Assembly: GCA_022385755.1 (NCBI GenBank)
Contig: MU278393.1
Coordinates: forward strand, 72,966-88,400
From: Trametopsis cervina
Lineage: Eukaryota; Basidiomycota; Agaricomycetes; Polyporales; Irpicaceae
Direction: 5' to 3'
Length of the DNA: 15,435 bases
How positions within the stretch are numbered: the stretch's first letter is position 1; every line of letters begins with the position of its first letter. Both the position numbers and the translations under genes were made by a program. Positions 1 to 15,435 of the stretch are shown piece after piece. The notes under the pieces are model-generated. The model saw only the letters and a list, made by a program, of their open reading frames with translations. It was not told the origin of the DNA and searched no databases.

Positions 1-214
1 AGATAGAAGGCCACAAACGTCTGACTACGACGGGTGCTGCGCGGAATGAGGCACCACGCGAATACACCCGTCGGATGTATAGTCAGGAAAACCCCCGGAG
101 CCCAAACGTAGCCAGTGGCGGGCGAGCTGAGACGATCCGGCGTAGAAGAGAAGGGAGCAGACTTAAGTGCGGACGGAAGAAATGATGTTGAGGCCCGCGC
201 AGGAGTAGCTGAAA

Positions 215-388
215 TCATGTAGTCTGACGATTTCTCGTCTGGCGTACAGATTGAGGATGAGTCCTCAGTCCTGAGGCCAACGTGGGGATGATGTGTGCTG
301 GCGGTGACGCACTGGAAATCCGCCCCGGGAACGCCAACAAGATTGCAGCCTGACGAGTTCTCGTCCGGCATGCAGACCGAGGATGACG
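215..388 (-). repeat. Leader-like repeat, left copy (two modules)
   Basis: Read on the minus strand, this stretch is homologous to the leader in front of the large plus-strand gene (6541-6700). Both contain CGGACGAGAACTCGTCAGGC and, about 70-90 bp further, CCAGCACACATC. The copy is internally duplicated: the module with the palindromic core GACGAG-AA-CTCGTC lies at 350-388, and a diverged version (GACGAGAAATCGTC) recurs at 224-262, a period of about 126 bp. By analogy it is probably the 5' leader of a paralogous gene transcribed leftward out of the window. I found no start codon with a matching protein before the left edge, so it may equally be an orphan promoter fragment. Confidence 0.6.
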
Positions 389-460
389 AACATGTAGAAT
401 GAGTTGGAGTGACGTGGCCGAGCGGAGACCAATGATGAATGGAGAAGTGTTGCTAGGAAC

Positions 461-530
461 CAGTTTACGGTTGAAACGCGCTGAGCGCCCGGTCACGTGT
501 GCACGTGACTGTCACCAAGCGCCTGGACTC
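461..530 (+). repeat. 70-bp dispersed block, copy A
   Basis: This block is repeated at 6400-6469 in the same orientation with a single mismatch (C/T at about base 28). It begins CAGTTTACGGTTGAAACGCG and ends AAGCGCCTGGACTC. Flanks on both sides differ between the copies, so the block is a discrete unit. Relative to the neighbouring leader repeat (215-388, minus) it lies upstream but inverted, whereas copy B is in the same sense as its leader. It could be an upstream regulatory element that works in both orientations, or a small mobile or recombinogenic unit. Confidence 0.85.
492..509. promoter_or_regulatory. Double CACGTG palindrome in copy A
   Basis: Two perfectly complementary 8-bp arms, GTCACGTG and CACGTGAC, are separated by TG. 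Each arm contains CACGTG, the classic E-box/G-box bound by bHLH and bZIP factors. The motif is conserved without change in copy B, where surrounding flanks are not. A binding role is inferred from the motif only. Confidence 0.5.
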
Positions 531-2631
531 CAGGCCACTCTGCCTAATGTGGACTCCAGCGACTTCGCCGACTTCAGCATACCGCCATCCTTCCAAGCCC
601 GCGTCAGGATGTGCTGAATCCGGAGGCCAGAAGTGTTAAACTAGCAAATCTCGTTTGACTCGGGCGCATAATCATGAAACTGTAAGAGATGACTTCAAAT
701 ACTCGAACCGCCTATTGAATCTGTCCCTCCGTGATACAGCCTAGATGACGCCCCAGGAGATGAGTTATGTTATCAGTTGTCCTCGTGAAAGCACTAATTC
801 GCTTACCTCGTCCGTTTTCCTTTCCTGGCTCATTTATCCTGAACAGACTTTCCGTGCTCGACTGCCCGAAGTCATCGATCAAGTTCAGCACTTTGCATCC
901 ATCAACGTGGCGGGGAGTTCTGGGGCCACCGATGATGCACTGGCGTTTCGGGGGGCCTTGACGGGACTGAACATGAATGTGCATTCGAAATGTCTGCTCT
1001 CCTAGACACGCTGCTGATTCCAGGGCTTGAAGTATTTGCGTTCGCACCGGAAAGTGCAAAGCGGACATGAGCATGGTATACGAGTAGTGAGAGAGGAAGG
1101 AGGTAACATCCCCATGTGCGAGAAGGCAGTGTGCTATAGAACATAATGCGTAATGCGTCATTGCCTTCCCCTTCCGACAACCCTCTGCTCAACCGCGCCG
1201 ACTCCCGCACTGGCCATCTCAGGCACGTCCGATCATGATCGACGTTCTTGTACGTCATTCACAGCGCGCATTGACATCCATGCGCGTACCGTTCACGAAC
1301 AGTACTTCGCGCTGCATCCCAGGTACGCTACTTGAATGCTGTGCTATAATGAACATGCTAGCACGCTAATTGCTCGCCACAGGTCCAAGTGATGCCCAGG
1401 CTAATGCCATCCCTTCCCCCTGCAAACCTTGCACATCATTCGTTTGAGCCCTGTGGTGGCGCGGGCTTGCGCTGTGTGAGGTCGAGACGGGCAGTGCGCA
1501 GCGAGAGCGTCGGGAACATCAAGACCCGCGTTTGGGGCCGTGAGGGTGGAGTGATGAAGCAGGAGGAGTCCTCGCGCGTTGAGGGTGTGAGGGCGCTACT
1601 GCTGGTGCGTGGAGGAGCAGGAGAGGGATGAGGGCTTGTCGGTGGGCACACCGTAGGGGGTCATGGACGCCCAGGCTGCGATGCCGTCTGAACCTCTGCT
1701 ACCCCAGTTGTGCGCTTCGCGTCCTTGTTGAACGATGTCTGAGCACGTCACGAGCATGTTAAGTTCCTGGACTTGATCCAGTCGTCATCGTGGCTGCGTG
1801 GGAGGTATGCATGCGGCGAGACTTTGAGAGAGAGGTCGACAGTGCGGTACTGCTCGTTGGCGTGTTGCAAGCATTCTTGTGGAACGATGTCGGGCACGTT
1901 GCAACAAAGCTTGCACGGGATAGCGTGTGTATAGCGAGGGTTAACACTGGTGCAAGGCACTCAGCAGAGCACTAGTCGATAGTCCTGACAGTTCTACCCT
2001 GCGTAAAAAAGAGGGGTAGTGGCGGAGGCAAGAAGACGCAGTAAGGCTGCGTGAGGAAGAGGACTCATAACCACAGCAGCGTTACACCTGGGCGCCGCCA
2101 TCGTCAAGCGCATTAGGAAGTAACACGCCAGAGAGCCTTAGTGCGACGGTAGGAGTGTGTGCTGCGTTGCCGGAAGGTCCAAGGGTCGCGACAATGAACG
2201 TCTTGGAAGCACACAGAGGAAAGCGAGTGAGCAATGTTGAAGTTCACGGAACTCTTGTGCGTCACCTCGTAGAGTAGTGCTTGAATACAAACCTTGCTGT
2301 AGGATGGACATTACAGTATTGCAGATCAGCTTGTGTACAGAATAGTAAGTGCTAGAACACGACACCTATAGATTCCGATGCTCATCAAAAGGCCAAAAGG
2401 CACCGACAGTCATAAACACAGTATGGGAGAGAGCAGCCGTGACGAGGAGGCTTGAAGGTGCAGCAGTAGGGCGCGTCAAGCATCCACCTCGGGCGTGCGA
2501 GGAGACGGAAGTATGACTGGGTTGGTGAGGATAATATGAAGCTTCAGTTGAGAACAAAGGAGAGTAGGGCCCGGAAAGATCACATGGTCAACACACAGCT
2601 ACATTAACACAGTATGCCAACATTAAAGGGA
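531..2631. other. No supportable gene (531-2631)
   Basis: Only short overlapping open frames occur here, the longest about 149 codons on the minus strand (712-1161) and 80-86 codons on the plus strand (745-1005, 1389-1631). None shows a domain I recognise or a convincing chain of exons. A weak repeat, GAACGATGTC followed by GCACGT a few bases on, occurs near 1731 and 1883. The segment may hold a decayed gene or plain intergenic DNA. Confidence 0.4.
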
Positions 2632-3071
2632 TTAGACAAGCAGCACATGTGTATATACTAGCAATTCGCTGAGGCGGTCCAATTCTCTTTCAAAGCCATC
2701 ATAAAGGTGGCATGATATTTCAATGAACTGATCGAGTTGTGCCTTAGATGCATCAGCCTGTCCTTGCGATGATGGCGAATGTTAAGCCTGAGGAAAGAAT
2801 TAGATATGTTACGGGAGAGTAATTGAGAATGGCAACTATACCTGAGGGAAATGACGCGCTAATTGGAGCTCTGGGCTCTCACCAGACATCTTCATTGTTT
2901 TACACCGTTCTAGACTATCAATAACATATGATAGATCTCGCAATGCGGAGAATAGAATGTCATGCTGGCAGAACAAATTGAGCATACATGGTAAACTGAG
3001 AAGTCATGGTGTACCTGTTGCTGAAGAAGGGCTAGAACAGCCTCTGTAGACATATTTGAGGCCGTAGACAT
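2632..3071 (-). CDS. Small three-exon gene, helical 101-residue protein of unknown function
   Basis: Model: exons 3071-3015, 2964-2842 and 2757-2632, giving 19+41+41 residues. Introns are 50 nt (GTACAC...CCAG) and 84 nt (GTATAG...ACAG), both joining in phase 0. The product starts MSTASNMSTEAVLALLQQQ and ends in a Leu/Glu-rich stretch (FERELDRLSELL). It is probably mostly alpha-helical, possibly a coiled-coil subunit of a larger complex; no signal peptide or membrane segment is seen. The first ATG follows an in-frame TGA and has A at -3. A second in-frame ATG lies six codons later inside a duplicated 18-bp unit. I do not recognise the family. Uncertain points: an acceptor at 2788 would end the protein one codon into exon 3, and a GTATAT site near 2659 could splice on to further exons. 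It lies downstream of the C2H2 gene on the same strand. Confidence 0.5.
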
Positions 3072-3081
3072 ACTTGAGGCT
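3046..3081 (-). repeat. Two-copy 18-bp tandem repeat at a start codon
   Basis: Two 18-bp units (3046-3063 and 3064-3081), differing at a couple of positions, each encode Met-Ser-Thr on the minus strand. The duplication covers the presumed start codon of the small gene, so it carries two in-frame ATGs in similar context. Confidence 0.75.
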
Positions 3082-3690
3082 GTAGAAATGGCTCAACGGG
3101 GTATGAGAGCTGGAGAAGGATAGTAAAAGTCAACAAGCCGCAATTGTAGCGAATATGGATATCTCTTTCACACGCACATTACGCGAGAGCCAACGTTGAA
3201 CGTTGTAAGTCCAAGATGTGGACAAGTCTGCAGAATGCACACATTTCATAAGCTATAAGCGTGCCTTCTGACGTGGAACAGCGCCATGGTATATGCGGTG
3301 CTGAGTCAGTCGGACAGGGGTATTGAATTGAACATGACGGATCCACATTGTAGTCTAAGGCATGTATTGCAGAGATACAGAACAAAAAGGTAGGGCCAAA
3401 GCAATGTTGTGTAGGAGATAACAGGAACCCAAGATGGCTTGAACAGAACTAAATGTGGTTTATGGACAACAGATAAGATGAGAAAGAGACAACGAGATGC
3501 AGGGGCATAGAGGTGATCATAGTTTTGAACAAGACGAGAGAATACTTTTGACGAAGAGCAGACAAGCGAGCGGGAGAAAACTTCAACCTGTGATAGCATG
3601 AGGATAAGCAAGAATTCCGGTTCTTGTTCCTCCATGTACGACGAATGAGGGGAGCTTTGTTTGCTCCTTCTCCGGTATCAAGGCTTTTTT
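3072..3690. other. Intergenic: probable 3' UTR of the C2H2 gene
   Basis: This stretch separates two minus-strand genes. Its minus strand is pyrimidine- and T-rich and mostly non-repetitive. One frame stays open for 109 codons (3635-3306) with a true ATG, but its composition is hydrophobic and low-complexity, as expected of a translated 3' UTR. The promoter of the small gene must lie in its lower end; no clear TATA box is visible there. Confidence 0.5.
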
Positions 3691-5714
3691 CTACACCGCG
3701 AGCCCTGCTGAGGACATTGAGTGCGAACGCGAGAGCGGCTGGTGACCGTTGTGATACGACTCGGAGCGCCAGCTATCGTGGTGGTGCGTGTGGTGGTGGT
3801 GGTTGACACTGTTCGCCGAGGGAGTAGAGTAGCTTGAGTACGGATATTGCTGCCCCTGTTGAGCATGCGCGTGGTGCGGCTGAGGATGCTGGACATGGGA
3901 AGAATACGATGGGGGGGCGCCGGAGTGTTGCTGTGATTGCTGCGAGGCGAGTTGGGGCAGCTGGGTGCCGGATGAGCCTTGTGAGTGAACGGCGCTGGTA
4001 CGCGAAGGCAGAGCTTGTGCCGTGCCGCGCGCGACGCGATCGCTCTGGATGGGCGCAAGGACGACCGGTGGCGAGTTGTGTCGGCTGTGAGAAGATGTGC
4101 CTTGCGGGCTATAATGATGCGAGCTGGGCACAGACTGGGCGGCCGTGGGATGATAGCGATGGGCGTAGCCCGGGATGGAAGACGATGCAACGCCCGACGG
4201 GTGCGCCTGCGAGAGTGTGTCCTGGTTCCCTCGTCCCTGAGAGGAGACGTACGTCGCTAGCGGCAGCGAACTCGCCGATTCGTGCCGATAGAGCGCGTTA
4301 GCGGAGCTGGGCGAGTAATTTTGGCTGTGCGGCGTGGCTTGGACGAGGGGCGGCGACGGGGTGCCTCTCATAGATGCAACTGATGACATATGTCAGGGAA
4401 GAATGGGCGTGATGTCAGTGAACGGGAAGCGACGTCTCGAAAGAGCGCAAACGCACCAGTCGTTCGCGATGCGGCAATTTGCTGGGCCGAGTTTCCATGC
4501 TGCCGTTGCTGCTGCTGTTGCATGCCATAATGGCCTGCGTACCCGTGCGGCAAGTGCAGCAAGACGGGCGGGGCCGAGTGGGGAGATGTGGGCGAGGGCT
4601 CCTGGCCTGCGTAGCCGCAGCCGGCACTAGCCTCAGTCGGCGAGGGGCGGGGCTCCCGGCTGTCGATCGAGGAGTTCTTCCATACACGCATGCTGCTCTG
4701 CGCATACGACGGCGCGCTGAGGTGGACGCCGTGCGAGGGCGTGGCGTACACGGCTTCGGGAGAGTGCGAGATCTGGGCGGATGCGCGCCCTGTGCTCGAA
4801 GACGCGTACGGAGAGTGGTAGTATGTAGCCTCAGGAGAGGAGCGGCTCGAAGATCGGCTGGAGATGCTCGCAGGTGGCTGCAACGACTGCGAGCTGCGAC
4901 AGTCGACGAGAGGGGGCGGGGTATTTGGCGGGAACGGGATAGGAGGCATCACATGCTGCATGTCGCGCGAGTCTGCGATGCAATGCGGATTGTGAGAGGG
5001 CGCCGCCTGGTCCTCGCTGATCAACGCCATTGGTGGCGATTTTGTCCTACGGCGGGAGGAGCCCGTCTGCCGGAGGACGCGCTGCCGCTGGTGCTTGTCC
5101 ATGTGCATCCTGGTGGCGAGACCTGATGTTCTGCGCGAGCCGGGCGACATGTGGATTCGATAGCTGTATCAAAACACATCATCAGATTGGGCTAGTACGC
5201 AGGAGGAATAGAGAAAGAAGACGCAGGTGGTAACGTGCTTTGCCCGTAGCCATGCCCTACGTCGCGAGAGGTCTTGGCTGCTCGTGGGAGCGACCACGTC
5301 TTGTGTGCTGTGCACTGCGCCTGAGATGCGCCCCACGAACCACGGAGGTATCACCGACGAATGCACGGCAGGCACAACGCGCCCAAGGAGCTTCCCAACG
5401 AACTGTGCTCGGCGGCGCACCCAGAAGAATGCTAGACCTGGTGCGATGAACAAAGAGAGTTCGGAAATGAAGACTCACTGCTGCTGGAGATTATCCTGCC
5501 TGGAGCACTTTTTCTCGCACCCGGGGAATGGACACTTGTGGTTGCGCTCACCTGTGTGCACCCTGGCGTGCCGTGCGAGATGTCCGCTTGTGGTGAATCC
5601 GCGAGAGCAAGTTGGACACGAGTACTCTTTCTTTGGGGCTGTCGGGGGCGACATCGCGTCGTAGCGTTGCGCGTGCCGAGGAGAGGCCACGCGACCGTCT
5701 ATATGTGAAGACAT
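3691..5714 (-). CDS. C2H2 zinc-finger transcription factor, NRG1-like fingers (543 residues)
   Basis: Exons are 5714-5479, 5163-4457 and 4379-3691 (236+707+689 nt, an exact reading frame). Two adjacent C2H2 fingers lie at about residues 31-84. Finger 1 is C-X2-C-X12-H-X3-H with FTTSGHLARHARVHTGE. Finger 2 is C-X4-C-X12-H-X3-H with CSRQDNLQQHYRIH, completed only after splicing. These signatures match the fungal NRG1/MIG-type repressor group, which binds DNA in the nucleus. The remainder is disordered: Ser/Pro/Gln/His-rich, with a Gln run (about residues 285-290), a His tract near the C-terminus, and a conserved-looking basic tail ending SRSHSMSSAGLAV. Intron 1 is 315 nt (GTGAGT...ACAG) and splits the first zinc-ligand His codon of finger 2. 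Intron 2 is 77 nt (GTGCGT...TCAG, branch CTGAC). The start is the first ATG after an in-frame TAG in the leader. The target genes cannot be told from sequence. Confidence 0.88.
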
Positions 5715-5763
5715 AGCGACGCTTCTGGTGAGATGTGGGGAGGGAAGCTGCTAGAGAAGGATG

Positions 5764-5769
5764 TATATA
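5764..5769 (-). promoter_or_regulatory. Probable TATA box of the C2H2 gene
   Basis: Minus-strand CTATATACAT sits about 50 nt upstream of the ATG at 5714, followed by a CT-rich stretch typical of fungal transcription start regions. This implies a short leader. A CTCTAG in that leader could also be a 3' splice site of an upstream exon, which I cannot exclude. Confidence 0.5.
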
Positions 5770-5770
5770 G

Positions 5771-6399
5771 GGTTGGCCGTAAGAAGGGTCGAGGAGGGCA
5801 AAGAGGTAATGTCGAGTGACTCATAGAACTCTGGGAGATCTGAGAGAGGAGGCGATTGGGCCGCCTTGCCTCCGTACGAAGCTCACACAGCACGGTTCTT
5901 TCCGCAGAGCGCGCTAGGCTCTAATGCTGAGGGCACAGCGGCAAATGGTGACACAATGGCAACAACAAATGATGGAAGAATTTACTACAGCATCACAACC
6001 GCACCCGCAGCATATCAACATAACCTAATGTATGAGGAGTAATCGACGCGAAGAAATTCTCACCGCGCTGGACGGCAATGCTGACGAGAACGTGAACGTT
6101 GCCGGCATCGTTACAGACAAATTTCACGATGCGACTTGCGCCCCCATGGTCTGTCATAATGTGGGTGCCTCGCTAGCCATCTTCGACGTGCGTTCTCCCT
6201 TGCTTATGGCGCTGTTCTCACAGTAATATTCTGTTAGACTAAATAGAAGTCGCGCAAGACGTGTGGACGGCTGGTGAGCGTCACCGTAAACGAACTAAAT
6301 GCAAGCGACGGAGCGTTGAAGCTCGTGATACGACAGAGAACCCATCGTTATCTCTGATTTCTGCAATGCGCAGCCGAGATGATTCCCTTCTTTCGGACC
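5771..6399. other. Divergent intergenic region
   Basis: This is the region upstream of the C2H2 gene (leftward) and of the large plus-strand gene (rightward). It holds one ATG-started 64-codon frame on the plus strand (6032-6226) with balanced composition but no recognisable motif. I regard it as unproven. No repeat is seen before the 70-bp block. Confidence 0.45.
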
Positions 6400-6469
6400 C
6401 AGTTTACGGTTGAAACGCGCTGAGCGTCCGGTCACGTGTGCACGTGACTGTCACCAAGCGCCTGGACTC
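6400..6469 (+). repeat. 70-bp dispersed block, copy B
   Basis: Same unit and orientation as 461-530 with one base different. Here it stands about 300 bp upstream of the start codon of the large gene and just before a GTTCCT-type pyrimidine-rich microsatellite (about 6493-6520), which is a plausible transcription start zone. The two copies bracket about 5.9 kb containing the C2H2 gene and the small gene, so they are also possible recombination partners. Confidence 0.85.
6431..6448. promoter_or_regulatory. Double CACGTG palindrome in copy B
   Basis: Identical to the palindrome at 492-509: GTCACGTG, TG, CACGTGAC. It lies about 320 bp upstream of the start codon at 6771, a sensible distance for an upstream activating site. 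Confidence 0.5.
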
Positions 6470-6540
6470 TAGCTGAAGATCTTGGCCGAGTTGTTCCTGT
6501 TCCTGTTCTTGTTCCTGTCTTCGTTTAACCACATCCATCC

Positions 6541-6700
6541 CAACTCTGCACGCCGGACGAGAACTCGTCAGGCTGCACCCTCTTTGGCATTCTTCGCACG
6601 GGTTTCATTCGCGTTCCCTCCAGCACACATCCTCAATCCGCACATCAGCCTCAGAACTTACGCCCCATCCGAGTCCTCGCTCCGCACTTCAGCCCTACAT
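6541..6700 (+). repeat. 5' leader repeat, right copy
   Basis: Homologous to the minus-strand stretch 215-388, sharing CGGACGAGAACTCGTCAGGC and CCAGCACACATC with roughly three-quarters identity between them. It forms the untranslated leader of the large gene. In the spliced message this leader is open and in phase with the coding sequence but holds no ATG. Confidence 0.65.
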
Positions 6701-6701
6701 T

Positions 6702-6759
6702 GTGAGTCTTAGACGTCTATACTGCTCACATCGATTTTTCTTTGTTTACTGACTGTTAG
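6702..6759 (+). other. Intron in the 5' leader
   Basis: GTGAGT donor at 6702, CTGAC branch site at 6749-6753, and TTAG acceptor ending at 6759, 11 nt before the start codon. The 58-nt length and all three signals fit a basidiomycete intron. It is predicted from signals only. Confidence 0.6.
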
Positions 6760-6770
6760 ATATTCAGACC

Positions 6771-9676
6771 ATGTCGCCACCTCAGCAGTCCTTTGTTCTG
6801 CCCAAGCCTACCGTCTTCTGGTCCCATCGCAACAATAATCCCGTCGGTCTATATTCGTCTCCCACAGCGACGTTCATGGTGGACGACTGCGACTGGGGAG
6901 ACCTCAACATATTCTCTGCGCTTCATCCGCGCTGGGTAAGCGATACCGATTTTTGGACCGCACTTGTTCCTCGGAACATTGTATGGGAAGGCCTTCTGGC
7001 TCCACTCGCTTATGCAAATATCATCAAAGTGGACGTGGAGAATGGCGTCCGTTGGAGGCTAGGCAATGCGGCTGGCTGGCAATGCGTAGAATTGACTCTG
7101 GCCAATATCAAGGCGGCGATGATTAAGCTGGGCATCCTGCTGCCTTTAGATTTCAAAGCAACTCCGTGGCCTCGGACCTTCAACTACGCGACGGAGTTCT
7201 TCCTCAAGAATGATGCTAGGAAAGCTGTCGCCCGAGCTAGGGCCGCCTTTTTGGCTGTTATTGGAAGGCTTACATACTACGGTATACTACTCCAGCACAA
7301 GAATTCAAGTCCTTGGCTTGACCGAATTTCGGAGCAGTCCCTGCTCCCCTCGGATCTCATTGACGACCTGCAAGCTTCTGTCATCTGTCAATGCGCCTAT
7401 CGGATTTCTGGTCTATGTAGGCGAACTGGCTTGTTCCTCGACGCTCGGGACCCCGTTTCTGCAGAGATGGAAGCAGTGCTGATGGTGATGATGGAGGAGT
7501 TCGCTGTGCCCGTTTATCTGTGGTACGGTCCGATACCTCGGCTTGTGCAGCCTTTTGCACAAAGATATTTGCCCTCTCGGGAACGGGTAGACGCTTGTCG
7601 AAAATTGGACACGCACCAGATGTTTTCAACGTTGGTTGGCGACGTGCCTCTTCTAGAGCAATCGGTGGGGAAAGGCCGCCAGGAGGAAGGTTCTCAATCA
7701 ATGGTAATGGATGCTGAGGCCGGCGCTGCATCTCCGTCGTCCATGCCCACAGAATCTCGCCCGGTGAATATCCAACGTGACCCAATCACCCGCTATATTC
7801 CTGGACAAACATTCGAGGAATTCGTGCAGGCAGAGGAAATATTCGCTGAAAGGCGCAAGGCACAGGAAACTCCACGTCAGCGGCAGGCAAGATTGAGTCG
7901 GGAGACAGCATATGCAGACAAGCCTCCTCCTGGACGCAGAGGGGCAAAAGTGTTTATTTGGGAATACGATGCGCACGATTGCTACGTTCGTAGACCAGTC
8001 TCTTATAGCGATTTTGACGCACTGTGGGAGTCGACTCCTCCCGAACATATTAGATACAATTCATTTCGTAACGAGTATGATATCTGCGAACAGTTTGCGC
8101 CTGAGGCTGAGCTACCGAAAGTTTACTACCGTTTCCCTGTCCAATCGTACACAATTAATGCCGAATCTCCGCGCACACCGCCTCTCCCGTGTCACTCTCG
8201 ATCTCCCACTCCTCGTCGTCGCTCTCGATCTCCCACTCCTCGTCGTCACTCTCGATCTCCCACTCCTCGTCGTCACTCTCGATCTCCCACTCCTCGTCGT
8301 CACTCTCGATCTCCCACTCCTCGTCGTCGCCCTCGATCTTCCGCTCCTCATCGTCGCTCTCGATCTCCCACTCCTCGTCGTCGCCCTCGATCTCCCGCTC
8401 CGCATCGTCGCTCTCGATCTCCCACTCCTCGTCGTCACTCCCCAACATATGTGCAACCAGACATGTGTCCTGTTCCTCCTGTACAAGATAACTCCACGTT
8501 CCAGCGGTATTGCTGTAACGATCTCGGCCCCACATTCAGACCCAGATCAGAAGATGTCGCTCTCAGGGACATACTTTGGGAGCGCTATGGAGTCGCTGCC
8601 AATGATACCTACCAGGCTATCACTCAGAATGATTTCGATTTCCGAAGGGTCTGTTTGTACCTGGTCCACACGCTAATGGAAGTCCCTCCGCACAGTCAGG
8701 CAGCAATCATGGACTTTGTCTCCTCGCTCCTATCATCCACTCAGCCACCGACGGGCTGTACAGATCTCGTTGGCCCGGCGCATATCATGACCGTGATGAC
8801 CGTCAGATCAGTTACGGTGGCCGGTCGGTCATCATCCTGGTACTCGGTGTCGCTCCCAGAAGCAGACGTTGGGTGGGTACTTGTGGTCCCAGATGCTCTC
8901 ACCGCTTGCCAGATCTTGCGATCGAATCAAGGCTCCTCTCGAATCGATGTCGCGGAATACCTTCTTCAGCGCGGAATTGCCTTCAAGACATTGGATGCCT
9001 GTGAATCTTCCATTGATCAGATGTTCCTTACGCCTCCTGTTCCTATGTTCAATTCCCACGTACCTCTCGGCTTAGGTGCGCGGTCGCCGAACAAACCATT
9101 CTCACTCGTCGACTACGCCAGGTACGAGGACATACGCGACGCACTCCTACGATCGTGTCAAGGGCGCGCTGCTTTGATGCGAGGAGGCATCATATGGCGT
9201 CTTGCTGTCGAGGTCATAGGATTTGATGACGTCTTGTTTGGACCCAGTGGCAATCACACGCGACAGGACGCTGTAGTGATGGACGGAGAAAACTTCGTCG
9301 ATGACGAGTTAAACCAGCATCAACTTGATCTTATCTGCGGTGTGTATCGTATTGTGAAACCTCCGAGTAAGTATCGTCATGCACCTCCCAATAAAAACTA
9401 CTAACGTGCCTTACTTGTGTAGGCAACAACCCCAGTGACGTGTCGTGGTGGCCGAAGGAGAACACTTGGCAAGAGTCAGGCATGTACGTTGGATATTGGA
9501 CTGATGTGGCCGAACAATGGTTCCAAAAGCGTCGCTCCCTTATTAAGGAGGGCGGAGCACAACCCCTTCCAGCGTCTAAGTGGAAGACTGCTTTAAGTAA
9601 CAAGAAGGGTAAGACAAAGACCCTACTAAAAAATGCGGAAGCTCTCGCTGTTCGATCTCTAAGCTTTGTAGTATAA
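6771..9676 (+). CDS. Uncharacterised agaricomycete-type protein with Arg/Ser/Pro repeats (949 residues)
   Basis: Exons are 6771-9366 and 9423-9676. The 56-nt intron has GTAAGT, branch CTAAC and TGTAG, and rejoins in phase 1. The ATG has A at -3. The N-terminal third (about 1-300) is a globular, Trp-rich region starting with VFWSHRNNNPVGLY. A second conserved-looking block covers about 336-450, with VFIWEYD at 394 and NSFRNEYDICEQF at 430. Residues 475-555 are nine 9-residue repeats (HSRSPTPRR type). A third globular region runs to the end and includes SWWPKENTW at 873-881. From memory, this block order and the C-terminal WWPK...GYW...WFQKR pattern match a multi-copy family of unknown function in Agaricomycetes. 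No catalytic motif, signal peptide or membrane segment is seen. The RS-like insert resembles splicing-factor RS domains, but homology to these is not implied. The frame is intact throughout. Confidence 0.8.
8193..8435 (+). repeat. 27-bp coding tandem repeat, nine units
   Basis: Nine contiguous 27-bp units encode nonapeptides of the form [H/R][S/P]RSPTPRR, with SSAPHR and SPAPHR variants in units 6 and 8. The alternating PTPRR/APHRR pattern in the last four units suggests duplication of a two-unit block. Because the unit is a multiple of three, all three frames of the opposite strand and other plus frames also stay open here. Confidence 0.95.
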
Positions 9677-10000
9677 TTTGTTCTACATCCTTTGTAAGTC
9701 AATGAATTCTGTTCTGTTTTGTGAAGACTCTCTCGTCGTCTCGATCTTATGTGCTCGTTCAATGCGTTGAGCTCCTCTCGTTACTCTTATCTGTAGGTAC
9801 GTTATCTTATATTTACACCAAGTTAATATCCAGGACCGATGTGCGTATGGCAAATTCCTTCCAGTCATTAGGGCAGAACTCTGCGTTGCATCCTCTGCAC
9901 TGTATTGGTGCCCAGTACGTATATATGGATGACCTCTGCGACATCACCTCAGAAGTGACCATTACATGTCATCGTACTCTCCGCCGCATCTTCGCAGGGA
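9677..10000. other. Intergenic between converging genes
   Basis: The large plus-strand gene and the minus-strand cysteine-rich gene converge on this 324-bp gap, which must hold both 3' UTRs. One plus frame (9721-10077) is open for 118 codons but overlaps the opposing last exon and has no recognisable feature. Confidence 0.5.
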
Positions 10001-10885
10001 TCATCTTGAGAACTTGCAGTTGTCTACTCCGGCCTCGCTGTCTTGAACGCTCAAGCATCTACGTAACTTGGCTATAGGTCCTGCATCCCCGACTGCTCCC
10101 TTGCAGCCGTCACTGTCATTCATCATGGGGAAACTGAGAGTGTCTATTTGCTTGAGATGGATTGTGTAGTATGTATGACAGAACAAAGAAACGAACGTAC
10201 TTAGATACTTGCTTGTTCACTTTTTTCAACTGAGTTTCTTGCGCACCGATACTTTGCGCTGAACTCAAATCCAGCCAGTGTAGCACATACTTAGGACGAG
10301 TTTTGTCCTTAAACGAGTCGTACCACACCGAAAGACGTTCGTAGAGGATATGACCGGGGCCACCCTTCAGCTTCAGGGGTGGGTTGTAACAATCTACAAT
10401 AACCATCGGGGGCAGACGGAGCCGGGGAGTAAGCGGAATATAGTTTCGTACTCGACCCGCAGGCCGTCTGGGAAAACAGGTGCCCCATCTGCGTAGTACA
10501 TACCCTGCATCTTTGTAAGTATTGACTCACTAGCGCACGCCATGATGTAGAACTCACCATGTAGGCTTGGGGACTTTGCCGTCCCTATCACACACGGGGC
10601 AGAGGAGCACGGCATCCTTCAGCACTCGAGATCTCAAAGTCTTCAGCTGCGGCACGCAGTCATTACAGACCGAACGGCCACATTTACATTCTACAAGACT
10701 TCCTCCATTGACGGATACAGCACAAGTCCGACGACGATCCCCTCGCACGCTCTCCACTTACCGCGCCTCCATCCGATTCTCCCCCTCTGTCCCGCACCGT
10801 CAACTTTCAGCACCCCGTATATTTCCATGTCGCCGCTTACCGTGTACTGTCCTTCACCAGCGCGACAGAGGCTTGGGCAGCCGAC
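10001..10885 (-). CDS. Cysteine-rich PHD/RING-like gene, 3' exons (5' end unresolved)
   Basis: A consistent exon chain reads leftward: 10690-10558, 10504-10452, 10393-10201 and 10133-10001. Introns are 53, 58 and 67 nt with donors GTGAGT, GTACGA and GTACGT, and all phases match, giving about 170 residues to the stop. The first of these exons holds a zinc-finger-like cluster: C-K-C-G-R-S-V-C-N-D-C, then about 20 residues, then C-P-V-C. This resembles the second half of a RING or PHD finger with the usual His replaced by Arg. The next exons encode NPPLKLKGGPGHILYERL and a segment ending with PKYVLHWLDL. A preceding exon at 10885-10762, joined through a 71-nt GTAAGT...GTAG intron, keeps phase but is less convincing. 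No start codon is assigned. Function is unknown; chromatin or ubiquitin roles are possible from the finger alone. Confidence 0.4.
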
Positions 10886-12987
10886 CTGCAACACACTGTC
10901 TCAAGGACATACGTCCCGATAAACGCAGTGACCGCTGATACATCTGTAGGAGGGCAAACTGAAACCGCCGCCTGAGACACGAGACCTGTCCTCCTAGAAC
11001 GCCGCACGCCGTTCCGCCTACCGACACTGTCATCGCCACCACTCCTGCTAGTATTGATGTCGTAGGTGTCCGTGTCCCTCCTTTCACAGAATCCGCAAGA
11101 ATCGTCATTGCGTGTATTGCTTGTGTTTCTTTGTGAGCGCAGTAACTATGAGCAGTACGTGTACGGTCCTGTACGCTGTCGCTCGCGATGAGTGTTCTAC
11201 GAGTCCTGCAGGTCTGAGGTGGGAGTAAGCACCGGCGCATAGCACCGCAAAGTAGCACGACGCACTGGCAACGGTTATCACCAAGCTCTACGGCATCTCC
11301 TCTCGGATGGCGGACGAGCACGGCGGGAATCATTGTATGTCGCGGCGCAAGGGCTAAGGGGATGATTCATGATAGAGGAGCTGTCTTGCGCACGGGCCAA
11401 GCGATAGCAGATTGTTCGCGTGAGTCGTGCATTGAGGTGAGGGACAGCAGATACGGTCGTGAGGTGTCTTGCGCGATCCCAAATAGTACGGAATGGGAAA
11501 CGGCAGAATGTGCGTCATGTGAAGCGAGGAGCGCAACTCCACGGGTAGAAATTGAGTCGACTGCACGCTTTTCAGTGCCGCAATGCACACACACGCGAAC
11601 ACGCTTTGTTCTCGAAGAGAGGCGCAAATGTGCAGCAAGCATAGCATAGCGATCAGGGATACGAAGCGAGTGGTAGTAGGGACACGACGTGAAGCAAAAC
11701 ACTACCGTGAGAGGAGAGTTGTGACGCTACGTCGGGATATCGTAGGTCAACGCCGCTTTGTCGAGGAAGCCTCGTGGATGGAGGGATGCGATGCTAAATT
11801 ACCAGCAGTACTGACGGTCTAACGAGTGTGAAAACCCATACAAGCGCAACTGGACGTCGACACACCAGAGGAGAGGATGCAAGACATCTTCATCTAGACC
11901 GTCTTCCGATAAATAGAGCTACATCTTGCGAAAGCGGACGCACGAGCATGAGCGAGCCAGAGGACGGGAGATGGGCGGGGTCATACCACGCTGGAGTTCC
12001 TGGTACCGAATACGAATGAAAAGGAGACCGGGGACAGAGGTAGTGGTTCACGCGAGCACCCGTTGCGATGGTAGCCTTGCATGCTCGGAATCCAAACTCG
12101 CACGCCGTGCCTGGGATCACACTCCTTGTCGTCCCGCACGAGCTAGTTGGTGAGTATACAATACACATTTCGGAAACAGCGGAGGTAATGTCTTGGAGGG
12201 CTGTGTATGCAAACATTTCTACGCCTTCGTCTTCACAAGTCCTAGAGACAACGACACAGAATGAGTAGTTACCATATTGAGTGCAAGCCAGGGAACGGAG
12301 GCCTGTTTGACACGCGCACGCGAGAGTCGGGACTGAGAGGAGGCTGCGCGCCATGTATGTTGAGCTGGATGGTGTCCATGCGGGACCGTGCCGGGAATAA
12401 ATTACGGCCTGCGTGCTGAACGCGCCGCAACGTATATATGGGTAGGCTTGAGGCGTCTTCTCCCCAAAAGTCGCGTCGTGCGCCTGATACAGCATTACGG
12501 CTGGGTAAGCGCAGAGAGTTACTGGAGCGATGCAGCATAAAACGCGAGTGACCGCACACAGTCGTAGCACCTCGTCTGGAAGACTTCGCGACACGATCCC
12601 GTGTGTCGAAGATGTCCTACGAGCGACGAGATAGGTCTTCTGCTAGTGCTACCGCAGTTAAGCCTCCAGGTGAAGGGTGCGGCTACTTCGATTGTGTTCG
12701 GCATGACGAGGCGGTGTGGGGCTGGGAGCGGCGAGTTGCCGTACAGCGCACGCCCAGGATAGTCGTAGGTAGCTATCAGGGGAGGTGGAGCGTCTCCAAA
12801 TTCCCAAGCTGGTCTCCGTGGAGAGTCTACGGGCAAAGAGGTGCTGCGCGCATTTGGAGGACTGGAGCGCGGCGTAGTGTGAGCAGACGGAGAGGCAGGC
12901 TTTGGGTGCTATCGGGGAGTGTGACTTACAGGAAGAGACTGTGCGAGGGTTGCCACCAGACGCCAGCTTTGTGCCGTGGACGCAGTG
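10886..12987. other. No supportable gene (10886-12987)
   Basis: Long minus-strand open frames exist (11333-10854, 159 codons; 12594-11890, 234 codons; 12836-12519, 105 codons) but none shows a recognisable domain. The last contains a Pro-rich, protein-like stretch (PAWEFGDAPPPLIATYDYPG). Several GTAAGT/GTGAGT sites occur. This could be the 5' part of the cysteine-rich gene, a separate multi-exon minus-strand gene, or decayed coding DNA. I could not build a model whose phases and motifs agree. Confidence 0.35.
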
Positions 12988-13512
12988 TCAATTCGTCCGA
13001 TTAGCCACCCCTACTATTTGATCCATTGCGTCGTAGAGGTTCTCCTGCGTGCGGACCACGGGATAGGGGATTGTGCGACATCGATACTTGCGCGCTAAGC
13101 AGTGAGAGAGAGATGGCCGGGGAGTGTCTATAATGACGGCGGCGTGCGCTGAACAATAGAGGTCCAGCTGAAGATTTCTAGGCGGCGGCGGTGAGCGAGT
13201 AGAGAGGCGGGCAAGGGGGGAAGACAACTGTTGCGAAGACAGGAGTGGTTTCTGGATTCCCGGGTAGGTTGCAACAAGAGGAGTGGGAGACGCAATGGCG
13301 GAGGAGAGGTGGATACGGAGCCACTCTTTCACAAGAGTCCCGAAAAATGCAGCCGTGCAAATAAGGCTGAGGCTGGTGGAACATAGCGTGCCGTTATGAT
13401 ACGATGGTACGGGGGCATGACTTGAAGTGCAGTGATGCTGGGAGAATAGAACTTGTCGTGGGTAGCCTGCTATTTCATGCGCATTGTGCGTGTGAATGCG
13501 AGAACGGCGGCG
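12988..13512 (-). pseudogene. DUF6535-like membrane-protein fossil
   Basis: A minus-strand frame is open from 13512 to the stop at 12988 (174 codons) but contains no upstream ATG. At 13395-13306 it encodes a hydrophobic segment followed by LVKEWLR. This aligns without gaps over about 25 residues with the N-[AV]-L-W-F-x-S-L...LVKQWLR transmembrane hallmark of DUF6535, a domain expanded in basidiomycetes. The usual W-F pair is C-S here, and one residue is inserted after the Asn. The expected preceding transmembrane segment is not found in any frame upstream, and the following part does not resemble the family. I read it as a relic; a divergent internal exon is the alternative. Confidence 0.35.
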
Positions 13513-14865
13513 TTATCGGAGTCAATTGGAGGGGATATCTCGCTCCGTGTGCTTGCCTCATACACCGACGACTTCGTGAAGTAGAATACGTACCTGCCTG
13601 ATAAGCAATTGCAACGTCAGGTCAGATTGAATCACTCACCTATGCATCGACTGTCACTTCCTAGCCCCAAATCTCGCTATACAAGTCCCACCCTTCCATT
13701 TTTACCTAAGTGGAGTTGTTGTGCCGCCCATAGTGCCGAAACGATGCATGCAGTGGAAATGGGACTTGGTGGACGCCAGATGGCGGCGGCACGATCACTT
13801 GGTGAGGGTGCCAGAGAAGGCAGCACCGTGAGCTCGTGGCTGGGGGCTTGAGCATGGGGTAGGGTTCGCGTACACGTTGCGAGGGCAGTGGCGAGGAAGG
13901 GCAAGGGTTGCTGTGGTTCGAGATGAGGATTGAAGGGCGGGGCATGAGGCAGGAGCGGCAGCGATGAGAGCCGTCCGCGTCATCGCGTTGAAGGCGAGTG
14001 ACTGCATGCAGCGCGATGGACCGCTGGTGAGAAGAGAAGAGATGGATGCGGTTGAGTGTCGATCAAGTAGGGAAGGTGGGAGTGCTTGACAGAGTGCGAC
14101 GGAAGGGCGTTGTGGCATGTGCACTTCGTTTCAGATCAACCGCCATCGATCAGTGCAGAGGGTTTGCACGCATGATCTTAGAGAAGCGACAGGGAAGAAG
14201 AAGGGGTGTTGTGGTGCGAGGTGAGGGTCGAGAGGCAACCTTAGATATCGATTGAGTGCCGCAGTGACGATGATGAGACAAAGGGAAGTGCTTGGCAGGT
14301 TGTCGGCGCTATCGAGGCGCGGGCGTTGTGGCGTGCCCACTTCGGGTCAGATCGGCTGCATGCGATCTGTGCACACTTCACTCACCATGTCATCTTACAC
14401 TTATCACACCAAAGCACGTCAAGCACGTCACCCCGATTCTCAACCTCCACAACGCTGCCATGGAGTCGTCACCTAGGTTATATGTCATCTCTGCGTGCTC
14501 ATGCTGTGTTTCACGCTCACGTTTGAGCCCGACGGTTGCTTGGTGTGGAGGAAGGGATGCTGAGTCTGAGTGAATGGGAGAGAGGACGAGCCATGACAAC
14601 ATCGGTGAGTCCCGCGTTTCTCTGTTCGATTGGAATGTATTGCTGTCTTCTCACCTGCAGCACTGTGCTCCCAGTCCCGGCGTTTGACTCGGTCTCGTCT
14701 CGGGCGAACATCCACCCTGTCCAACACTTCCACTTCGCGCCTCGCGTTCTCCCTTCAAACTCACACTTCCTCTACTCGCTTCCAATACAAAACTCGAAAT
14801 CCCCGATGCCATATCGATGTCAATTTGCGATGGACCTACCGCACCAATTATGAGGCACCGGAAAG
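13513..14865. other. Gene-poor stretch before the telomere-like repeat
   Basis: No open frame longer than about 110 codons is present and none has a recognisable domain. The stretch contains the diverged tandem duplication described at 14051-14375 and an isolated intron-like GTGAGT...TGCAG around 14603-14660 that does not join useful frames. It is most likely non-coding. Confidence 0.45.
14051..14375 (+). repeat. Diverged tandem duplication, period about 200-216 bp
   Basis: Copy 1 begins near 14051 and copy 2 near 14251. Shared landmarks in the same order are TTGAGTG (14052 and 14252), AGTGCTTG (14081 and 14287), GGGCGTTGTGGC (14105 and 14321), then CACTTCG and TCAGATC. Spacing grows from 200 to 216 bp, so indels have accumulated. 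There is no sign of coding. Confidence 0.65.
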
Positions 14866-14880
14866 TTAGGTTAGGTTAGG
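14866..14880 (+). repeat. Telomere-like TTAGG x3
   Basis: Three perfect TTAGG units are followed by AGGGG. The usual basidiomycete telomere repeat is TTAGGG, so this is a short, degenerate or variant array. The G-rich strand runs toward the right edge, the orientation expected if the chromosome end once lay on that side. Confidence 0.6.
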
Positions 14881-14890
14881 AGGGGAGCGA

Positions 14891-14911
14891 GCCACGAGCG
14901 AAGCGAGTGGC
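14891..14911. other. GCCAC/GTGGC hairpin beside the TTAGG junction
   Basis: Arms 14891-14895 and 14907-14911 are perfectly complementary around an 11-base GAGCG-rich loop, just 10 bp inside the TTAGG junction and 12 bp from the ribozyme. On the minus strand this would be the last structured part of the element's transcript before the telomeric repeat. Confidence 0.45.
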
Positions 14912-14922
14912 GAGCGACAAGA

Positions 14923-15001
14923 CTGGTGTGAAAGGCAAAGTTCCCTCTACGGTAGTAGACGGGGGCAACTTTCGACGTTAGTCTCATCAGTGCCTCACCA
15001 G
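14923..15001 (-). ncRNA. Type I hammerhead ribozyme
   Basis: Minus strand, 5' to 3'. Stem I 5' strand CUGGUG (15001-14996) and AGGCA (14995-14991); core CUGAUGA (14990-14984); stem II GAC/GUC (14983-14981 with 14976-14974) closed by UAAC and with the canonical G10.1-C11.1 pair. Then GAAA (14973-14970); stem III AGUU/AACU (14970-14967 with 14942-14939) extended by CCC/GGG and UCUAC/GUAGA around a UACC loop. The cleavage triplet is CUU (14940-14938), so cutting is predicted between 14938 and 14937. Stem I closes with UGCCU (14937-14933), bulge UUCA, and CACCAG (14928-14923). The stem I bulge faces loop II, as in natural fast-cleaving type I ribozymes. All core bases are intact. CUU is an allowed but usually slower NUH triplet. 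Catalysis is predicted, not shown. Confidence 0.88.
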
Positions 15002-15025
15002 GATAGGTTATATATCGAACAGCCA

Positions 15026-15051
15026 ACTCCGAACTTAGAGAAATCCGGAGT
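15026..15051. other. ACTCCG/CGGAGT hairpin upstream of the ribozyme
   Basis: A perfect 6-bp stem (15026-15031 with 15046-15051) with a 14-base loop. It lies 24 bp upstream of the ribozyme in the minus-strand direction. Confidence 0.4.
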
Positions 15052-15057
15052 GCAGGG

Positions 15058-15071
15058 GACGCGTAAGCGTC
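15058..15071. other. GACGC-GTAA-GCGTC tetraloop hairpin
   Basis: A perfect 5-bp stem closes a four-base loop that reads GUAA (GNRA type) on the plus strand and UUAC on the minus strand. It forms part of a series of hairpins in the putative element. Confidence 0.4.
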
Positions 15072-15279
15072 GCCGCTGAGTAAAGTGAAGTGCCGATCGC
15101 GCGGACATCACGCAATCCCTTAATCATTCACCGATGGACGGAGTATAAGTCAGCAAACTCCAGAACGGGCCGAGCCCCGGGGATGAGTAATATCCCGATC
15201 GGGGATCGGCTATGGAAGGCCGAGGCCGAAGCCGGCGGGCCGGCCGGGCCGGAACAGACATCGGACCGGAGTAGACGCC

Positions 15280-15299
15280 CAGCCCCTCGGAGGGGGCTG
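15280..15299. other. CAGCCCC/GGGGCTG hairpin
   Basis: Complementary 7-bp arms (15280-15286 and 15293-15299) flank a six-base loop. This is a further structured piece of the GC-rich tract. Confidence 0.4.
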
Positions 15300-15409
15300 T
15301 TCTCGCCCGAGGCGTATTAGCCTCCTGTGGGGTCATCGAAACCCGACTCGAAGGGAGCCGGGTGAAGTCGAAACCAGCCGTCAAAACGTCCGGCCAGACC
15401 GCGACCGTA

Positions 15410-15428
15410 AGTGCGCCGAAGGCGCACT
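15410..15428. other. AGTGCGCC/GGCGCACT hairpin at the window edge
   Basis: Perfect 8-bp arms (15410-15417 and 15421-15428) surround GAA. On the minus strand the top reads CC-UUC-GG, close to a stable UUCG-type loop. A small terminator or processing element is conceivable, but nothing else supports that. Confidence 0.4.
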
Positions 15429-15435
15429 CCGTTCA

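Follow-up and report, generated by a model that had tools for sequence, protein, structure and literature searches.

The window analyzed here (the whole stretch of DNA, 15,435 bases, to whose positions 1..15,435 all unlabeled coordinates refer) forms the terminal 15,435 bases of contig C46 and carries on its minus strand, from 15001 to 14923, a complete type I hammerhead ribozyme motif of 79 nucleotides (nt) with its full core. We describe this motif, the repeat that bears it, and the probable nature of that repeat as a retroelement attached to chromosome ends. Direct reading agrees with the initial annotation on the strand and position, the core bases, stem I with its UUCA bulge, the three pairs of stem II, and the roughly 12 of stem III (Table 1), and the assignment to type I is correct: the core and all three helices are present, the CUGANGA, GAAA, and UH elements come with the A15.1-U16.1 pair (14970 with 14939) that closes stem III, helices II and III are closed by loops, and helix I is open. 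Cleavage by the motif itself would be expected between 14938 and 14937, the site predicted by hammerhead numbering. Its H17 is U, which hammerheads allow and which is usually slower than C.

Table 1. Features of the motif and its surroundings, in window coordinates
Feature	Position	Strand	Basis
3' terminal telomeric stretch CCTAACCTAACCTAAC, 16 nt, reverse complement of TTAGG	14865..14880	-	read in all copies and telomere arrays
Hairpin in the 3' tail, between ribozyme motif and telomeric stretch	14887..14915	-	-11 kcal/mol, z -1.55, weak
Type I hammerhead ribozyme motif, 79 nt	14923..15001	-	direct reading; descriptor vs shuffles; RF03152 below cut-off
Stem I, 3' strand: UGCCU, bulge UUCA (14932-14929), CACCAG	14923..14937	-	direct reading; pair probabilities
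Predicted cleavage site, between H17 = U (14938) and 1.1 = U (14937)	14937..14938	-	hammerhead numbering
Stem III, 4+3+5 = 12 base pairs (bp), small bulges, 4-nt loop UACC	14939..14970	-	pair probabilities: outer 4 pairs 0.86-0.90, middle 3 ~0.4, inner 5 0.97-1.0
Core GAAA, final A = A15.1	14970..14973	-	direct reading
Stem II GAC/GUC (3 bp), loop UAAC	14974..14983	-	pair probability 0.30
Core CUGAUGA	14984..14990	-	direct reading
Stem I, 5' strand: CUGGUG + AGGCA, 6+5 bp, open	14991..15001	-	pair probabilities 0.89-1.0, innermost pair 0.31
Element body 5' of the ribozyme motif, 434 bases, reaching the contig end	15002..15435	-	common to the C27 copy

A full descriptor of the motif (CUGANGA, stem II of at least 3 bp, GAAA, stem III of at least 4 bp closing on A15.1-U16.1, H17, and stem I of at least 4 bp) matches the window once and only 1 of 2000 dinucleotide shuffles, and across 235 kb of genomic loci (overlaps counted) it finds copies of the same element only. 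The bare pattern CTGATGAG..CGAAA is far more permissive, occurring once in the window but in 5 of 200 shuffles, and at 49 places genome-wide against 24 for the reversed control, with 4 of the 49 belonging to this element. The full descriptor is absent from the 30 other such places that we examined with their flanks (two overlap; 15 more were left out), of which relaxed descriptors match 2, 3, and 3. A chance motif is thus disfavored by both the shuffles and these 30 control loci. An 87-nt stretch here also folds better than its shuffles (z -2.35, with 1 of 200 equally good).

We searched the genome (29.4 Mb in 59 contigs; copy counts are lower bounds) and found at least five copies of the motif region, on contigs C46, C27, C18, C26, and C8, with the whole motif in four; the C8 copy starts inside stem III because its contig opens with 4973 bases of N. 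This N stretch (C8 1-4973) borders the ribozyme copy on its 5' side and could conceal a coding part. The C46 and C27 copies have about 565 bases in common at 98% identity, and their bodies upstream of the motif are separated by 8 substitutions over 434 positions plus a single 5-base indel; the C18 and C26 contigs stop 3 bases past the motif, and the genome search returned no third copy of the body. Each copy holds one motif, and tandem motif units were not seen in the genomic DNA examined. A covariance model built from the four identical copies matched, among 13 sequence sources, only these copies and the C8 fragment. The suggestion that the motif may define a family therefore holds locally, with at least five copies in one genome, but not in the sense of a family with covariation, as the four full copies are identical.

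Two further searches addressed additional members. Allowing up to 2 mismatches, the 16-nt 3' end matched at 25 places, compared with 37 for the reversed control; the exact matches, 5 in number, were the five copies themselves. A candidate sixth copy at C7:6357-6372, with one mismatch, proved to be low-complexity sequence on reading 200 bases. A pattern search for a further family combining ribozyme and telomere repeats returned 2 matches (reversed control: 1); its gap limits excluded the present copy, so the outcome carries little weight.

All five copies end in the common 3' sequence CTCGCTCCCCT, followed by bases in CCTAA phase whose number differs from copy to copy (16 in C46, 11 in C27, 8 in C18, 7 in C26, and 10 in C8). 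Exact telomeric arrays of at least 22 nt occur only at the start of C27, the start of C40, and the end of C21, so the host telomere repeat is TTAGG; the C27 start shows 19 TTAGG-type pentamers. The C21 subtelomere, by eye, bears a degenerate GGCAGTCCCTTCCC-type repeat. Past the junction, the 2.5-kb flanks of the five copies have no mutual blastn match at E <= 1e-3 and contain 0 further CCTAACC or GGTTAGG. A telomerase RNA gene, which the CCTAACCTAAC stretch had suggested, was rejected because the stretch is terminal, varies in length, and adjoins unrelated flanks, and a segmental duplication of the subtelomere was rejected on the lack of any such match between flanks.

No copy is farther than about 5.1 kb from a contig end, and in all five the 3' end points inward. 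The firm case is C27, where the copy extends from 4430 or before to about 4990, 4.8 kb from the visible telomere array, with no CCTAACC or GGTTAGG between the array and the element's own 3' end. The same subtelomere holds a large inverted repeat (C27 688-2757, arm pieces 76-100% complementary) and, beside it at about 2760-2960, sequence reminiscent, by eye, of a decayed Helitron protein.

We consider it likely that the sequence from window position 14865 to the contig end represents the 3' portion of a telomere-attached, endonuclease-deficient Penelope-like retroelement on the minus strand; its 3' anatomy, flanks, and orientation fit that class. The initial annotation had passed over the most important point: the motif occupies the 3' end of a telomere-tipped repeat near contig ends. 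In rotifers, telomere-attached Penelope-like elements carry a 3'-terminal hammerhead followed at once by reverse-complement telomeric repeats, and the fold exposes these repeats, which pair with the G-rich chromosome end and so make an endonuclease dispensable (PMC6431247). The same succession, hammerhead and then reverse-complement telomeric repeats, is what we find at the 3' end here. Endonuclease-deficient Penelope-like elements occur in some fungi too and prime from chromosome ends or breaks (PMC3846280), and in one Agaricus bisporus homokaryon two chromosome ends that lack telomeres carry Penelope-like elements (PMC7473861).

By this model, an RNA intermediate would end with the hammerhead fold and then a C-rich tail complementary to the TTAGG telomere overhang. 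The compact fold would present the tail, which would pair with the 3' G-rich terminus of a chromosome or of a break that had partly healed. A reverse transcriptase would then extend this terminus by copying the element RNA, which would leave the new element oriented with its 3' end inward. The ribozyme would then, or in transcripts of tandem copies, cut 5' of the tail to trim or release the RNA. Hammerheads of the Penelope type self-cleave at 3-25 mM magnesium, according to PMC11167929, which further reports that ribozyme mutants of the Penelope-like element tested still inserted, and that cleavage occurred only with added protein. Cleavage may therefore not be essential.

The insertion by ribozyme mutants and the need for added protein weigh against the Penelope-like reading, as does the characterization of Penelope and Terminon hammerheads in PMC7761336 as minimal, lacking helix III or loop contacts. 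Several of our own results count against a ribozyme. The ribozyme fold, at -24.7 kcal/mol, lies 1.9 above the predicted optimum of -26.6; the pairs of stem II form with a predicted probability of 0.30, and the middle three of stem III with one of about 0.4; and a different fold is predicted within a 197-nt context. The Rfam check proposed with the initial annotation came out below the gathering threshold, the outcome it had named as refuting: in Rfam 15, Hammerhead_1 (RF00163, gathering 34 bits) gave no match with E up to 10 over 161 bases or up to 5 over the window, and RAGATH-1-hammerhead (RF03152) reached 21.2 bits (E 0.13) against a gathering threshold of 56.3 bits. We count both outcomes against a ribozyme. 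The 5.1-kb stretch around the C27 copy had 16 weak Rfam matches, no hammerhead among them. Rfam's curated cut-offs thus pass over this hammerhead-type motif, which we do not take as refutation because a cut-off is a database convention and not a property of the fold. The alignment to RF03152 covers the core and the GACU start of stem-loop II; that model, however, treats stem II as one pair, and the long bulged stem III belongs to the present motif. Genome-wide, the RF00163 search was uninformative, recovering 0 of 14 controls, and the RF03152 search was insensitive, missing this copy too and detecting 8 of the 14 controls, none above the cut-off. Taken together, the results against a ribozyme leave room for a weak or protein-assisted one.

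The four complete motif copies are identical over 79 nt, and hence offer no covariation evidence for the helices. Between C46 and C27, positions 14871-15001 show 0 differences in 131 positions versus 8 in 434 upstream, a difference that is not significant (Fisher test, p = 1.0, on 136 positions with two counted substitutions past the junction), and selection on motif and tail was accordingly rejected as an explanation. These two observations, together with the suboptimal fold and the missed Rfam cut-offs, are what a non-coding subtelomeric repeat would lead one to expect, spread by recombination or end healing and bearing a chance or decayed hammerhead-like fold. We regard this as very unlikely, since a complete motif arose in only 1 of 2000 shuffles, the motif sits exactly where telomeric Penelope-like elements carry their hammerhead, and plain duplication does not give unrelated flanks past a telomeric stretch of variable length.

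The evidence from position also has its weaknesses for a telomere-attached Penelope-like element. A telomere array is not visible at four of the five copy-bearing ends, and a 5' end capped by telomeric repeats is seen in no copy. Because repeats break contigs, the location at contig ends is partly an effect of assembly, and three of the five contigs (C46, C18, and C26) end inside the element, so that their end positions are not independent evidence.

A further point against it is that no Penelope-type reverse transcriptase was recognized among the 33 RVT_1 matches genome-wide. We inspected five weaker or odd RVT_1 loci (L078-L082): by eye, two are LINE, one is Copia, and one Gypsy, and the fifth has no open frame of at least 90 amino acids; the other 28 we take to be Gypsy or LINE from the span of the match alone, by rule of thumb. 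GIY-YIG has one short match in the genome, on C11. In the element's sense, 15002..15435 has no stop-free frame longer than 89 codons (frames judged by length), the longest frame in C27 2700-5000 is 104 codons, and six open frames of the window match no Pfam family. With no enzyme recognized, short frames, and no third copy of the body, two possibilities follow: the element is non-autonomous, or its coding part has escaped assembly or lies in unreadable sequence.

A non-autonomous state invites comparison with a telomere-attached "telomeric retrozyme," a short RNA lacking a reverse transcriptase that joins a ribozyme to a telomere-complementary tail and depends on the enzyme of another element, or on telomerase, to be copied onto chromosome ends. 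The want of a recognized Penelope-type enzyme, the mere 565 bp or so common to the two longest copies with no further body copy, and the 104-codon limit on frames in C27 all favor it, as do metazoan retrozymes, which PMC11722881 describes as short, type I, and dependent on a foreign enzyme. We nevertheless judge it unlikely, as the C46, C18, and C26 contigs break off within the element and the C8 copy adjoins 4973 N, leaving no copy with a visible 5' end, and as the tandem motif copies that retrozyme circles would need were not seen in the genomic DNA examined. That the element has no polymerase of its own and its ribozyme RNA mimics the telomerase template, to be copied by host telomerase or a foreign enzyme, seems to us quite unlikely.

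Finally, the element might be a LINE-type one that targets telomeres, like MoTeR of Magnaporthe, with the hammerhead at its 3' end incidental, and frames read as LINE are indeed present in the genome. To our knowledge no hammerhead is on record for MoTeR, which we count against this possibility. Telomere-targeted elements such as MoTeR1 do occur in fungi, according to PMC10088271, but a hammerhead directly before reverse-complement telomeric repeats has been described for telomeric Penelope-like elements only (PMC6431247), and we hold a LINE origin to be highly improbable.

Elsewhere in the window, an 877-amino-acid open frame on the plus strand (6771-9404) contains SPTPRRR-type repeats, a 27-bp array at 8184-8440; it has no Pfam match, and its relatives occupy six other places or clusters in the genome at 23-51% identity. 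Two segments 6 kb apart, 239-533 and 6395-6648, are joined by a 78-bp direct repeat (96%) and also share inverted pairs of 99 and 27 nt that are 76-78% complementary, possibly remnants of mobile elements.

Among known systems, the Terminons and Athena elements of bdelloid rotifers are likewise telomere-attached, endonuclease-deficient Penelope-like elements joined to chromosome ends by their 3' end (PMC6431247), whereas the visible element here spans only about 570 bp and shows no reverse transcriptase. The hammerheads of Yarrowia lipolytica resemble ours in being fungal and residing in multicopy interspersed repeats, and the portion of PMC3088659 available mentions no telomeric tail. Among the matches listed in the literature searched, we found no 3'-terminal hammerhead with a telomeric tail in a fungus; key reports of 2014 and 2017 lie outside that search, and we make no claim to a first report. 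Cervera and De la Pena reportedly described, in 2014, hammerheads in fungal Penelope-like elements, with variants active as monomers in fungi and protists; the likeness would lie in a monomeric type I fold with a stable stem III. Gladyshev and Arkhipova are said to have described Coprina, in 2007, as endonuclease-deficient Penelope-like elements of fungi and protists attached via 3' telomeric repeats. The probable host kingdom and the attachment to chromosome ends by 3' telomeric repeats would be shared with Coprina, though there is no reverse transcriptase here to compare. The name Coprina itself appears in PMC6515669.

The present family is a compact, apparently recent, and probably fungal example that displays ribozyme, telomere-complementary tail, and five junctions side by side, and it is of more than routine use because its near-identical copies look recent. 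Provided that the host can be grown in culture, the system would be convenient for testing the role of retroelement hammerheads, "still a mystery" in the words of PMC7761336. The arrangement is already known from telomere-associated Penelope-like elements, and the case is best read as a new example and not a new kind; it differs from the published rotifer kind in its long stem III, a full 12 bp where PMC7761336 calls theirs minimal, and in its TTAGG-type tail, which reads CCTAA and matches a TTAGG telomere.
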